Source of the DNA: Chitinophaga niabensis
GTDB lineage: Bacteria > Bacteroidota > Bacteroidia > Chitinophagales > Chitinophagaceae
Assembly (NCBI RefSeq): GCF_039545795.1
Contig: NZ_CP154260.1
Location: 3,415,001-3,479,000, forward strand
Length of the DNA: 64,000 nucleotides
Direction of reading: 5' to 3'
The notes beneath the pieces were generated by a model, which was given only the letters and a program-made list of their open reading frames with translations, did not search any database and was not told where the DNA came from. The translations under genes and the position numbers were made by a program. Positions 12,397-45,207 of the stretch are shown here, piece by piece; within the stretch, counting starts at the first letter, position 1, and every line of letters starts with the position of its first letter.

Positions 12397-13179
12397 TTAA
12401 ATTGTTGGTAGTGTGCCGCCATCGATGACGAATTCTGTCCCTGTTAGATAGTTCGCTTTCGGAGAAACCAGAAACCCAACCAGTTCAGCTACTTCTTCGG
12501 GCTCTGCTGGTCTTCCGAAGGGTATTCCACCCAAGGCATCTATAACGCTTTGTTGAGCCTCCTCAATAGAACAATTTGAACTATGGGCGATCCGTTCCAA
12601 AAAATATTTGACATTTTCAGTCCTGATCCATCCTGGAGAAACTGTCAGTACCCGCACCCCTTTAGGAGTCACCTCTTTCGATAACCCTTTGCTGTAATTG
12701 ATCAGGCCAGCCTTAGCTGCCGCATATGGAAGCGTTGCATCATATAAGGGAAGCCGCCCCTGGATAGAAGCAATATGAATGATCACCCCGTTTTTCTGCT
12801 CAAGCATTTGCGGTAAAAATCCACGGTCTAATCTCACTGGTGCCAGTAGATTTGTTTGCAGGGTTTTCTCCCAGTCTTTATCGGTTAAAACCGCAAAACC
12901 ACCTCCCGGGGTTTCCGACGCTCCCAGGTTATTTATAAGGATGTCGAGTTTTTTGTGTTTTGACAAGACTTCGTCCACCACTTTTTGTGTTCCCGGTTCC
13001 GTACTCAGATCTGCTGAAATAAAATGCAGGTTTTTGGTTAGATTTTCAGGTGCGTTCCTTGCGGTAATAATAACAGTTGCGCCAGCCTGTAGCAGCCTTT
13101 CTGCAATTGCCCTTCCGGCTCCCTTTGTTCCTCCTGTTACCAATGCAATTTTACCATTTAACTCATTGTTGTAATTCAT
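12397..13179 (-). CDS. Short-chain dehydrogenase/reductase (SDR), HxlR-linked
   Basis: The product is 260 residues from ATG at 13179, a typical classical SDR. The cofactor motif is 'ALVTGGTKGAGRAIAERL', followed by 'INNLGAS' and the catalytic 'IASIQGRLPLYDATLPYAAAKAGL'-region with Tyr-x-x-x-Lys (YAAAK); the C-terminus has 'EFVIDGGTLPTI'. It should use NAD(P)H on a carbonyl or alcohol substrate. A longer reading from 13317 exists, but its first 46 residues look like translated promoter DNA and would overlap the divergent regulator's start, so 13179 is preferred (AAAAGAAAACAGT precedes it). A palindrome at 13258-13273, 78 nt upstream, is the probable operator. Confidence 0.9.
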   Translation of the reverse strand: MNYNNELNGKIALVTGGTKGAGRAIAERLLQAGATVIITARNAPENLTKNLHFISADLSTEPGTQKVVDEVLSKHKKLDILINNLGASETPGGGFAVLTDKDWEKTLQTNLLAPVRLDRGFLPQMLEQKNGVIIHIASIQGRLPLYDATLPYAAAKAGLINYSKGLSKEVTPKGVRVLTVSPGWIRTENVKYFLERIAHSSNCSIEEAQQSVIDALGGIPFGRPAEPEEVAELVGFLVSPKANYLTGTEFVIDGGTLPTI

Positions 13180-13257
13180 ACTGTTTTCTTTTAAAATTGA
13201 TACTGCAATTTCAGACGTATGAGCTGCTAAAACAATTACGGGGAATCGAATTGCATA

Positions 13258-13273
13258 GGGATAAATTTGTCCC
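13258..13273. promoter_or_regulatory. Putative HxlR operator palindrome, copy 1
   Basis: GGGATAAATTTGTCCC is a 16-bp palindrome with one imperfect pair. It sits 78 nt from the SDR ATG (minus) and 38 nt from the hxlR ATG (plus). The same motif, GGGANAAATTTNTCCC, recurs at 43715-43730 and 45126-45141 near the second HxlR gene with matching distances. Binding by HxlR is inferred. Confidence 0.65.
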
Positions 13274-13311
13274 ATATTGTATTTATAAGAACAATAGGTT
13301 AATTTTATACA

Positions 13312-13725
13312 ATGCACGAAAGAAAAACTCCTTTAAATTTGAATTGCGGCCTTGACCTGATAGGCGAGGTTTTGTATGGCAAATGGAAGATCCGTTTACT
13401 TTGGTTTATTAACGAAGGGCATAAACGTCCGAGTGAATTGCAAAGAAAAATCCCAGATGCATCACGAAGAGTTTTGAATGTACAGTTAAACGAACTTGAA
13501 GCTCACGACTTAATTAAAAAGAAAGTGTTCGCAGCGGCTCCTCCCAAAGTGGAATATTCTATGACACCTTTTGGAAAAACAATAATTCCTATCATCGGGG
13601 CTTTAGGTAAATGGGGCGATGAAAACGAGAAAAGATTACGTGATCTTATCCTGAATAGTAAAATAAAACTGCATGCAGAGAATTATAACAGTATTAAACA
13701 ACGTAAAGCCATCAAATACGATTAA
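13312..13725 (+). CDS. HxlR-family transcriptional regulator, copy 1
   Basis: The product is 137 residues with a winged helix-turn-helix covering about 10-105: 'NLNCGLDLIGEVLYGKWKI', 'RPSELQRKIPDASRRVLNVQL' and the wing 'VEYSMTPFGKTIIPII'. The Cys near the N-terminus (NLNCGL) is the position often used for redox or electrophile sensing in this family. HxlR proteins commonly regulate a divergently transcribed oxidoreductase; here that is the SDR at 12397-13179. A palindrome lies 38 nt upstream of the ATG. A -7-like TAATTTTA (13300-13307) ends only 4 nt before the ATG, so the mRNA could be almost leaderless. The start fits the family N-terminus. Confidence 0.9.
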   Translation: MHERKTPLNLNCGLDLIGEVLYGKWKIRLLWFINEGHKRPSELQRKIPDASRRVLNVQLNELEAHDLIKKKVFAAAPPKVEYSMTPFGKTIIPIIGALGKWGDENEKRLRDLILNSKIKLHAENYNSIKQRKAIKYD

Positions 13726-43657: not shown

Positions 43658-43680
43658 TAGTCTACCGCAAAAGTAGACTA
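43658..43680. promoter_or_regulatory. Inverted repeat A, copy 1 (metN promoter)
   Basis: TAGTCTAC (43658-43665), a 7-nt spacer and GTAGACTA (43673-43680) form a perfect inverted repeat ending 35 nt before the metN ATG. The same arrangement with a 7-nt spacer occurs at 45185-45207 before the TonB-receptor gene. It overlaps the metN -7 box, consistent with a repressor operator. The binding protein is unknown. Confidence 0.75.
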
Positions 43681-43713: not shown

Positions 43714-43731
43714 AGGGAAAAATTTTTCCCT
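43714..43731. promoter_or_regulatory. Putative HxlR operator palindrome, copy 2
   Basis: AGGGAAAAATTTTTCCCT is a perfect 18-bp palindrome. Its 16-bp core ends 38 nt before the hxlR ATG at 43769, the same distance as at the first HxlR gene (13258-13273 to 13312). It also lies about 92 nt upstream of metN. Confidence 0.7.
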
Positions 43732-43768
43732 GGCCCCTACTTCCGTCACAAGTTTTAACTTTGGAGCT

Positions 43769-44173
43769 ATGTACGAAAAAAAGATACCCGAAATGCTGGA
43801 TTGTGGCCTGGCTGTAGCCCTGAAAGTAATAGGCGGCAAATGGAAATCCTGGATCATGGATTGCATCAAACGCGGCGTTAGGCGCCCAAGCGCCATCCAC
43901 CGCGAGATGGATGTGATCGCTCCCCGGGTTATTAACCTGCACCTGAAGGAGTTAGAGGAATATGGGATTATTTACAAAGAAGTGTTTGCCGATATTCCCG
44001 CCAGGGTAGAATACCACTTTACCGAAGTGGGCGAAAGCCTGTTGCCGGTACTTGAGCAGCTGGAAACCTGGGGTAATACACACAAGGAATACATTCATCG
44101 TAACAATCGCGTGTATACACCCGGCTCCTGCCAGTTCCTCCCGGAAAACGCACATGCTTCCTTAAATAGCTGA
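43769..44173 (+). CDS. HxlR-family transcriptional regulator, copy 2
   Basis: From ATG at 43769 the product is 134 residues. The winged helix shows 'MLDCGLAVALKVIGGKWKSWI', split by the family's GGKWK signature, then 'RPSAIHREMDVIAPRVINLHL' and the wing 'RVEYHFTEVGESLLPVLEQL'. A Cys lies near the N-terminus as in copy 1, suggesting the two belong to one subfamily. A frame from 43691 exists but would place the palindrome inside coding sequence; GGAG before 43769 and the family N-terminus favour the shorter form. TAACTTTG (43756-43763) resembles a -7 box only 5 nt before the ATG. Its 3' end overlaps the convergent dehydrogenase by 12 nt. Confidence 0.9.
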   Translation: MYEKKIPEMLDCGLAVALKVIGGKWKSWIMDCIKRGVRRPSAIHREMDVIAPRVINLHLKELEEYGIIYKEVFADIPARVEYHFTEVGESLLPVLEQLETWGNTHKEYIHRNNRVYTPGSCQFLPENAHASLNS

Positions 44174-45046
44174 TTTCCGCATTACTTTGATGATAGCCGC
44201 ATGTTCTTCGCCACCATAACCCGCATCCACGGCACGCTGGAACAGGTTGGCCGCGAATACAGGCAGATCCGCACTGATACCGGCCTCTTTTGAATGCTGC
44301 ACCAGCAGGTGAAGATCTATAGCGGTGGTATTGATGGTACTTTCCGGCTCGTTAAAACGCCCTTCCTGGATCACTTTACCCATATGTATTGATTCTGTAG
44401 CCAGTATGGGGGAAATATTCGCGATCAGTGTACCAAATGCATCCGGCCGTAGCCCTGCATTTTCACAGATGAGTGCACCATGGCAAAAGCCTACCCAGTT
44501 ACCCGCCAGGTACGCCATTACAGCATTAAAAAGCACCGCAGAAGCACCGGCCTCCTCTCCTACATGGTCAACCGTACCAGCCAGGGCCTGTAAAGTAGCC
44601 TCATACTGCTTAAATGATGCGCTGGCACCGGCTATGGTGATGGTGGCTTCACTGGTTCCGATCTGCCGCGGCCAGGACATGATATCTCCATTCAGCGAAG
44701 TTCCACCCTGTTGCTGCACCCAGGCATCAAATTCACCCGCTTCCTTAGGCGTACCGGTACTTAACTGCACCACAGTTCTGCCACGCAATACAGCGGCATC
44801 TGCAGTATGTAGTATTGACCGGGTGATCTTATAATCGGACACGCATATCACCAGCAGCGGACTGGCAGCAATTGCTGCCGAAAGGTCCGTTACCAGCACC
44901 GCCCCTCTTTCAATAAGCGGAGCTGCCTTTGATGTATCCCTGTTCCATACCGTTACCCTGAAACCTTTTGCAACCAATGCGCCGGCAATGGCAGCGCCCA
45001 TTGAGCCAAGACCTATCACTGTTACTTTTTCTCCTGTCATGATCAT
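44162..45046 (-). CDS. 6PGDH-like NAD(P)-dependent oxidoreductase, imine-reductase type
   Basis: The product is 294 residues. The Rossmann domain begins 'VTVIGLGSMGAAIAGALVAKG' (split motif GLGSMG), with 'WNRDTSKAAPL' supplying the NADPH-preferring region, and 'STGTPKEAGEF' following. 'NGDIMSWPRQIGTSEATITIAG' and 'FNAVMAYLAGNWVGFCHG' resemble NADPH-dependent imine reductases / reductive aminases rather than 3-hydroxyisobutyrate dehydrogenases. It would reduce a C=N or C=O bond. The ATG lies 79 nt from a palindrome at 45126-45141, the same geometry as the SDR gene at 12397-13179. Confidence 0.85.
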   Translation of the reverse strand: MIMTGEKVTVIGLGSMGAAIAGALVAKGFRVTVWNRDTSKAAPLIERGAVLVTDLSAAIAASPLLVICVSDYKITRSILHTADAAVLRGRTVVQLSTGTPKEAGEFDAWVQQQGGTSLNGDIMSWPRQIGTSEATITIAGASASFKQYEATLQALAGTVDHVGEEAGASAVLFNAVMAYLAGNWVGFCHGALICENAGLRPDAFGTLIANISPILATESIHMGKVIQEGRFNEPESTINTTAIDLHLLVQHSKEAGISADLPVFAANLFQRAVDAGYGGEEHAAIIKVMRKSAI

Positions 45047-45124
45047 TCCATTTTTAGTTTGAGATAATGCTGCAAATTACCCCCGCTAAAACCCGCCACC
45101 AATAAGGGAAAAAAGATTCAGGTA

Positions 45125-45142
45125 GGGGAAAAATTTATCCCT
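45125..45142. promoter_or_regulatory. Putative HxlR operator palindrome, copy 3
   Basis: GGGGAAAAATTTATCCCT differs from the perfect palindrome at 43714-43731 at two of 18 positions. Its core is 79 nt from the dehydrogenase ATG (minus) and 103 nt from the TonB-receptor ATG (plus). A further half-site AGGGAAAAAAG lies at 45104-45114. Confidence 0.65.
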
Positions 45143-45184: not shown

Positions 45185-45207
45185 TTGTCTACAATTCCAG
45201 TAGACTA
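45185..45207. promoter_or_regulatory. Inverted repeat A, copy 2 (TonB-receptor promoter)
   Basis: TTGTCTAC (45185-45192), a 7-nt spacer and GTAGACTA (45200-45207) match the repeat before metN. It ends 37 nt before the receptor ATG. A -7-like TATATTTG (45180-45187) overlaps its left arm, so a bound protein would block transcription. Confidence 0.7.

Follow-up and report, generated by a model that had tools for sequence, protein, structure and literature searches.

A 16-bp palindrome as a probable operator of cysteine-containing HxlR-family regulators beside reductase genes in Chitinophaga niabensis and other Bacteroidota

Two HxlR cassettes in the window

The window, a stretch of 64,000 nucleotides of the Chitinophaga niabensis genome, contains two cassettes in which a gene of the HxlR family accompanies an oxidoreductase gene (Table 1). 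The products of hxlR1 and hxlR2, P0001 (90 bits) and P0002 (76.1 bits), both score above the PF01638 cut-off of 20.8 and are HxlR-like winged helix-turn-helix proteins. An earlier note on this DNA had placed a 16-bp palindrome at 13258-13273, 43715-43730 and 45126-45141, and GGGANAAATTTNTCCC indeed occurs there in exact form. No further copy with up to two mismatches was found in the window, and shuffled windows held a mean of 0.29 copies, with three copies reached in none of 100. The hxlR2/IRED cassette carries two separate sites, here called O1, and not one common site.

The distances given in the earlier note, 38 nt from the site to the ATG of both HxlR genes and 78 or 79 nt to that of the oxidoreductase genes, can be read directly on the sequence from the ATGs at 13312 (hxlR1), 43769 (hxlR2), 13179 (SDR, 78 nt) and 45046 (IRED-like, 79 nt). 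These start codons are choices: in the mechanical list of open reading frames, the start of hxlR2 is 43691 and that of the SDR frame 13317, and we used the homology-based starts 43769 and 13179. The IRED-like gene has a second in-frame ATG at 45040, 85 nt from the site.

Table 1. Coordinates of genes, palindromes and predicted promoter elements of the two cassettes in the window
Feature	Position	Strand	Remarks
SDR oxidoreductase (P0003), target gene	12397..13179	-	PF00106/PF13561
SDR gene -7-like element GAAATTG, predicted	13206..13212	-	TTG at +50
SDR gene -33 TTG, predicted	13233..13235	-	+23 from O1
Candidate second half-site O2, TCCCCG on minus strand	13239..13244	-	TCC 17 bp from that of O1, vs 19 in most SDR relatives
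O1, cassette A, GGGATAAATTTGTCCC	13258..13273		Between divergent SDR gene and hxlR1; kept in relatives
hxlR1 -33 TTG, predicted	13277..13279	+	+4 from last base of O1; inferred
hxlR1 -7 element TAATTTTA, predicted	13300..13307	+	20 nt after TTG, 4 nt before ATG; inferred
hxlR1 (P0001), HxlR family, Cys12	13312..13725	+	PF01638, 90 bits; HxlR/HypR structure matches
O1, cassette B, hxlR2 side, GGGAAAAATTTTTCCC	43715..43730		Exact match
hxlR2 -7 element TAACTTTG, predicted	43756..43763	+	5 nt before ATG
hxlR2 (P0002), HxlR family, Cys12	43769..44173	+	PF01638, 76.1 bits
Imine-reductase/reductive-aminase-like NAD(P) oxidoreductase (P0004), target gene	44162..45046	-	PF03446 + PF21761 RedAm-like_C; 6PGDH-type; convergent with hxlR2
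IRED-like gene -7 element TAATTTG, predicted	45073..45079	-	TTG at +51
IRED-like gene -33 TTG, predicted	45100..45102	-	+24 from O1
Candidate O2 of IRED-like gene	45106..45121	-	20 bp from O1; end abuts target -33
O1, cassette B, IRED-like gene side, GGGAAAAATTTATCCC	45126..45141		Exact match

A second palindrome, GTCTAC-N7-GTAGAC, lies at window positions 43660-43678 and 45187-45205. These are the promoters of the two genes that flank the HxlR/IRED cassette, one for a metN-like ABC transporter (with a NIL domain by Pfam) and the other for a TonB-dependent receptor. The number expected in the window by shuffles was 0.00; the genome holds 6 copies, all exactly N7, a count that alone is not above the control of 5. 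One copy stands just 5' of a gene that by eye encodes an O-acetylhomoserine sulfhydrylase (L289). From its sequence context, this palindrome is a candidate methionine/sulfur operator.

Occurrence in the genome and among relatives

The 7,201,998-base genome contains five exact GGGANAAATTTNTCCC sites, four of them in three HxlR cassettes. The site of the third cassette is at 404349; its distance is 83 nt to the HxlR gene there and 84 nt to a divergently oriented RND efflux gene. The fifth site (6267729-6267744; L005:1501-1516) belongs to a GC-extended, terminator-like hairpin 3' of a gene named by eye as that of DNA polymerase I (polA); the same hairpin match appears in another genome (G026; L061) and is a false positive of the motif. 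PF01638 has 19 matches in the genome, and inspection of the upstream DNA of 18 of them revealed the site in four, three exact and one (L019) with two mismatches, while the best upstream match of the other 14 had 4-6 mismatches. The four site-bearing proteins have a common start, M(Y/H)xxKxP...(C/Y)G. The fourth member of this group (L019/L188, genome position 5630644) carries a variant of the site, GGGACAAATAATTCCC, next to a divergent gene whose product looks by eye like an alpha/beta hydrolase. That four paralogues of a single cell share one operator type hints at possible cross-regulation. A wider regulon within this genome was considered and rejected: AGGGANAAATTTNTCCCT with up to two mismatches retrieves only the four O1 sites, the L019 site and the polA hairpin, and with up to three mismatches it yields 54 sites, no more than the control of 61.

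Within the genus Chitinophaga, 33 of 79 genomes carry the site, with 49 sites vs 6 for the reversed pattern, and 39 of the 49 (35 of 44 in relatives and 4 of 5 in the own genome) belong to HxlR cassettes. The remaining ten comprise five within long open reading frames, two polA hairpins, one site before an IRED-like gene (L037) and two that could be assigned to no class (L054, L063). Equal frequency of the motif away from HxlR genes, which the earlier note had named as evidence against its proposal of one operator class with a small regulon, is not what these counts show; both the own genome and its relatives support that proposal. In a family sample of 294 genomes, 22 match, spanning 13 of 101 genera, against 2 control hits. 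Outside the genus, 18 of the 21 family sites are located at the GGGANAAATTTNTCCC-linked HxlR group, one (L099) stands at an IRED-like gene alone, and two (L073, L079) lie in open reading frames. The IRED-like genes at L037:1501-1516 and L099:1502-1517 have O1, O2 and a correctly spaced promoter; no HxlR gene was found within 1.5 kb of either in the 3-kb loci examined, which suggests regulation from elsewhere in the genome.

When all of GTDB was scanned for AGGGANAAATTTNTCCCTAT, 79 loci were obtained. By their titles, 67 belong to Bacteroidota, in genera such as Dyadobacter, Spirosoma, Larkinella, Chryseobacterium, Pedobacter, Mucilaginibacter, Hymenobacter and Flavobacterium. An HxlR gene lies within 1.5 kb at 58 of the 79 loci and at 57 of the 67 in Bacteroidota. 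Among the ten Bacteroidota loci without a near HxlR gene, five (L106, L110, L111, L137 and L154, with the site at the end of the locus in L110, L137 and L154) have an SDR or Old-Yellow-Enzyme (OYE) gene at the site, and five (L103, L107, L141, L169 and L176) have neither. No HxlR gene was found at 11 of the 12 non-Bacteroidota loci, and about 8 chance matches are expected by a rough estimate from base counts. At L168:1531-1546, from Limosilactobacillus vaginalis, the palindrome separates a gene judged by eye to encode a nitroreductase from a divergent gene of a different HxlR subfamily, whose ATG follows at 32 nt; this site may be due to chance or may represent an operator type shared beyond Bacteroidota.

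To avoid circularity, we also searched from the protein side. P0001 matched in 7 of 148 Bacteroidota genomes at E 1e-25, the own genome included, and all eight SDR- or OYE-type homologues in the six other genomes have the site, at 37-38 or 47-50 nt and with at most one mismatch. More distant HxlR paralogues from another Bacteroidota lineage (L189, L190) carry CGCACAAATTTGTGCG at 29 nt, with the same core and other arms. In the genus, the 200 nt upstream contain the site, with no more than two mismatches, in 37 of 70 P0002 homologues (own included; 30 as returned and 40 hand-picked among the matches listed); many others have a palindrome of similar core and different arms, and some have no recognisable palindrome. 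Only 2 of 72,556 records of a plasmid collection contain a close P0001 homologue, both from Spirosoma. At L049/L102 and L152, the hxlR frames are apparently disrupted and the operators intact. As judged from these sequences, the GGGANAAATTTNTCCC site recurs across Bacteroidota at genes of a single HxlR group, and the neighbouring gene is mostly of SDR, Old-Yellow-Enzyme or reductive-aminase-like type.

Partner genes, promoter geometry and operator arms

The neighbours were tallied for 120 non-redundant sites, a set that excludes coding, terminator and duplicate sites as well as the 12 non-Bacteroidota loci (L005, L006, L032, L053, L054, L061, L062, L067 and L069 were left out). These neighbours comprise 64 SDR, 15 OYE, 9 IRED-like, 3 small SnoaL-like or related, 2 RND and 2 Zn-ADH-like genes (by eye) and scattered others; Pfam confirmed representatives of the SDR, OYE (PF00724), IRED-like and RND types. 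As a rule, a given type of enzyme is accompanied by an HxlR type of its own. Regulation of the two Zn-ADH-like genes adjoining a site was considered and rejected, as an O2 and a promoter of the target type are absent there.

Bacteroidota promoters have the -7 consensus TAnnTTTG. The fixed geometry proposed in the earlier note is real, but its reference is the core promoters and not the ATG: in close relatives of hxlR2 the site-to-ATG distance is 37 or mostly 46-51 nt, whereas the distances to the -7 element and to the target promoter are near-constant. Redundancy was removed from the promoter sets, on the hxlR side and on the target side, at 85% identity. The palindrome varies hardly at all across 54 SDR-type and 15 OYE-type hxlR promoters (the hxlR-side repeat with later loci covers 57 SDR-type promoters). 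Beyond the site, the -7 element of hxlR follows at 24-26 nt in 108 of 128 promoters with a good -7, counted with ties assigned towards position 26 in a set enriched by motif searches. A -33 TTG at +3/+4 from O1 was found in 47 of 57 SDR-type hxlR promoters and in none of the 15 of OYE type (one has it at +5), and it was looked for adjoining O1 at hxlR2 of the window and is absent; hence, blocking of the hxlR -33 is not general. At SDR-type promoters and at hxlR2 of the window the ATG follows the -7 element by 4-5 nt, while the OYE-type ATG lies about 11 nt further. Because this gap is so short, the sequence suggests that the hxlR messages of the SDR type and of hxlR2 are leaderless, and the gap together with the position of the -7 element accounts for the 38 nt in the earlier note.

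On the side of the target genes, with positions counted from the last base of O1, the -33 TTG is found at +23 in 42 of 42 SDR promoters, 13 of 13 OYE promoters and the single RND promoter of the non-redundant set; in all eight IRED-type promoters it falls within +22 to +24; the -7 TTG is found at +51 in 39 of 42 SDR and 13 of 13 OYE promoters. Beside the target -33 lies a degenerate second site, O2, usually 18-20 bp from O1. Its TCC stands exactly 19 bp from the TCC of O1 in 32 of 42 SDR promoters, 10 of 13 OYE promoters and the RND promoter, and 18-20 bp away in 8 of 8 IRED-type promoters. The shift is 17 bp in cassette A, vs 19 in most SDR relatives, and 20 bp at the IRED-like gene of the window. 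In a binomial comparison with 1/64, in which promoters count as independent and shared ancestry is ignored, the probabilities are ~2e-49 for SDR and ~2e-16 for OYE promoters. In cassette A, O1 and O2 occupy the gap between the back-to-back -33 elements. An inverted repeat is therefore found at a fixed place relative to both promoters, as is characteristic of the operator of an autoregulated regulator with an adjacent target.

The core of the palindrome is similar throughout, while its outer three bases vary by HxlR clade (GGG, TGG, CGG, CCG, CTG, GTG and CGC). A scan of 79 genomes for the TGG variant, based on DNA only, yielded five sites, all before HxlR genes of the RPNEL clade, and the corresponding scan for CGG yielded 20 sites against a control of 0; each of the 20 precedes, by 38-58 nt, an HxlR gene that belongs to the wider group. 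Since these variant sites all precede HxlR genes, the arms are tied to HxlR and not to an outside factor. In the clade MQxYERKTP (7 rows), no site of the O1 type was found within 110 or 400 nt, and L208 and L255 have no recognised site.

At one position of the recognition helix, assigned by alignment, D or E goes with C as the first arm base in 9 of 9 cases, and other residues do so in 2 of 61. A one-residue code fared poorly on closer inspection: the 20 CGG sites (3 of them from the first set) belong to 13 D but 7 N proteins, 12 of the 13 D-type genes also have a GGG-like site, as do L240, L246 and L249, and a tree of 70 of 83 rows, those with an accepted operator, shows only ~3 changes, with one pair on well-supported branches. 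The single residue may at most be part of a code. In the two-site D-type genes (L266, L268-L273, L276, L281, L282, L284 and L285), the CGG palindrome lies 54-58 nt and the GGG-like site, with 1-2 mismatches, 16-20 nt before the ATG.

HxlR proteins and possible modes of regulation

A Cys at the position of HxlR Cys11/HypR Cys14, the residue of thiol-sensing MarR/DUF24 proteins, is present in 138 of 141 operator-bearing proteins; the exceptions are the RND-linked L001 and L060 and a relative, L224. In the RND-linked protein (L001:1064-1417, also L060), Tyr replaces the conserved Cys and the perfect operator and O2 are kept; due to this replacement its signal may be sensed differently. The solved structures closest to P0001 are 7bze/7bzd (HxlR; E ~1e-22), followed by 4a5m (HypR). 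Bacillus subtilis HxlR, a formaldehyde-responsive activator whose Cys11 aligns with the conserved Cys, requires a Lys for its Cys11-Lys13 formaldehyde crosslink (PMC7835342). The Lys two residues after the Cys that marks formaldehyde-sensing HxlR was found in 0 of the 141 proteins, which have L, M, I, N, V or H instead. B. subtilis HypR (YybR) likewise has its Cys14 aligned, acts positively and has a regulon that includes the flavin disulfide reductase HypO (PMC6943732); oxidation activates it and does not release it.

Comparable regulators are YodB and CatR of B. subtilis and QsrR of Staphylococcus aureus, Firmicutes proteins that respond to quinones via such a Cys and control reductases (PMC6798810). 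They have the HxlR/DUF24 fold (YodB and QsrR are among the structure matches) and the N-terminal Cys, and they act as paralogues over several reductases in electrophile detoxification (PMC6798810). Unlike the proteins studied here, they belong to another phylum with another promoter type, and the targets of the proteins studied here are SDR, OYE, reductive-aminase-like and RND genes; the likeness to these three regulators and to HypR concerns fold, Cys and targets. By analogy, the Bacteroidota cassettes may sense electrophiles or oxidants, with the regulator repressing its own gene and that of a clearing enzyme, and the neighbouring enzyme probably clears reactive compounds.

We therefore consider it probable, on the strength of sequence and arrangement, that GGGANAAATTTNTCCC, in many cases extended to ATAGGGATAAATTTATCCCTAT, serves as operator O1 for one group of Bacteroidota HxlR/DUF24 proteins, which contain the Cys, are autoregulated and repress reductase genes. 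The sites and their linkage to HxlR genes, the promoter geometry, the Cys and the clade-specific arms are observed, and from them we infer binding, repression, Cys sensing and an inducer as follows. A HxlR dimer on O1, just upstream of or against the hxlR core promoter, would repress its own gene, and a weaker O2, usually 18-20 bp away, would end against the target -33. Together, O1 and O2 would cover the gap between the back-to-back promoters, so that both would be repressed. The conserved N-terminal Cys would react with an electrophilic or oxidising compound and the protein would leave the DNA, whereupon the reductase (SDR, OYE or reductive-aminase-like) or efflux pump would be made and the compound removed. 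Several observations point against this model: the hxlR -33 does not always adjoin O1, O2 is degenerate, the two Zn-ADH-like genes lack an O2 and promoter of this kind, the RND-linked HxlR lacks the Cys, and some members are siteless.

The main rival is that the HxlR proteins are activators of the target gene and O1 an upstream activating site, as for B. subtilis HxlR and HypR, and we regard it as unlikely. O1 does lie upstream of the target -33, whose TTG begins 22-24 positions beyond it, a place also used by activators; the OYE-type hxlR genes and hxlR2 of the window lack a -33 TTG beside O1, as do promoters that need help; and the closest solved relatives, HxlR (PMC7835342) and HypR (PMC6943732), both act positively. 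However, -33 and -7 elements can be recognised in the target promoters and their spacing is constant, so that these promoters look usable without an activator, and O2 runs into the target -33, which suits blocking.

That another transcription factor binds the palindrome, with the HxlR genes as mere members of its regulon, appears quite improbable. It would fit the common operator of the four HxlR paralogues of the own genome, even though measured pairs are 47-49% identical, and the O1 and O2 of the two IRED-like genes (L037, L099) with no HxlR within 1.5 kb, but the variant arms follow HxlR clades, and all TGG (5 of 5) and CGG (20 of 20) sites of the DNA-only scans precede HxlR genes. An origin of the palindrome as a transcription terminator, selfish repeat or chance repeat can practically be set aside. 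The genomic copy at 6267729 is indeed a hairpin after the DNA polymerase I gene, and five genus sites lie inside long open reading frames; nevertheless, the sites at HxlR genes lie in promoter regions at near-constant distance to the -7 and -33 elements, and both this geometry and the reversed-pattern control contradict a terminator or chance origin for them.

Among the titles and abstracts listed in searches of an open-access library, none describes such a Bacteroidota HxlR operator, and the main text of one Bacteroides regulon paper contains no HxlR; an HxlR regulon is mentioned in a table of a paper on lactic acid bacteria. Returning to HxlR repressors acting at O1, a broader picture can be offered tentatively, at somewhat less than even chances: a large HxlR/DUF24 stress-sensor network in Bacteroidota with a common operator plan, that is, an AT-rich core and tandem sites beside fixed promoters, whose arms would be rewritten by clade together with the protein. 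As several paralogues in one cell have the same arms, they would cross-regulate one another's enzymes. The palindrome and its promoters provide, in one block of less than 50 bp, a testable DNA-level handle on a family of stress-sensing regulators from Bacteroidota that live in soil or with plants. The operator predicts regulons from sequence alone, its variants are a natural series in which shifts in the DNA target of a winged helix can be read out, and it connects a possible class of inducers with enzymes of biocatalytic interest, namely those of the reductive-aminase-like, OYE and SDR types.
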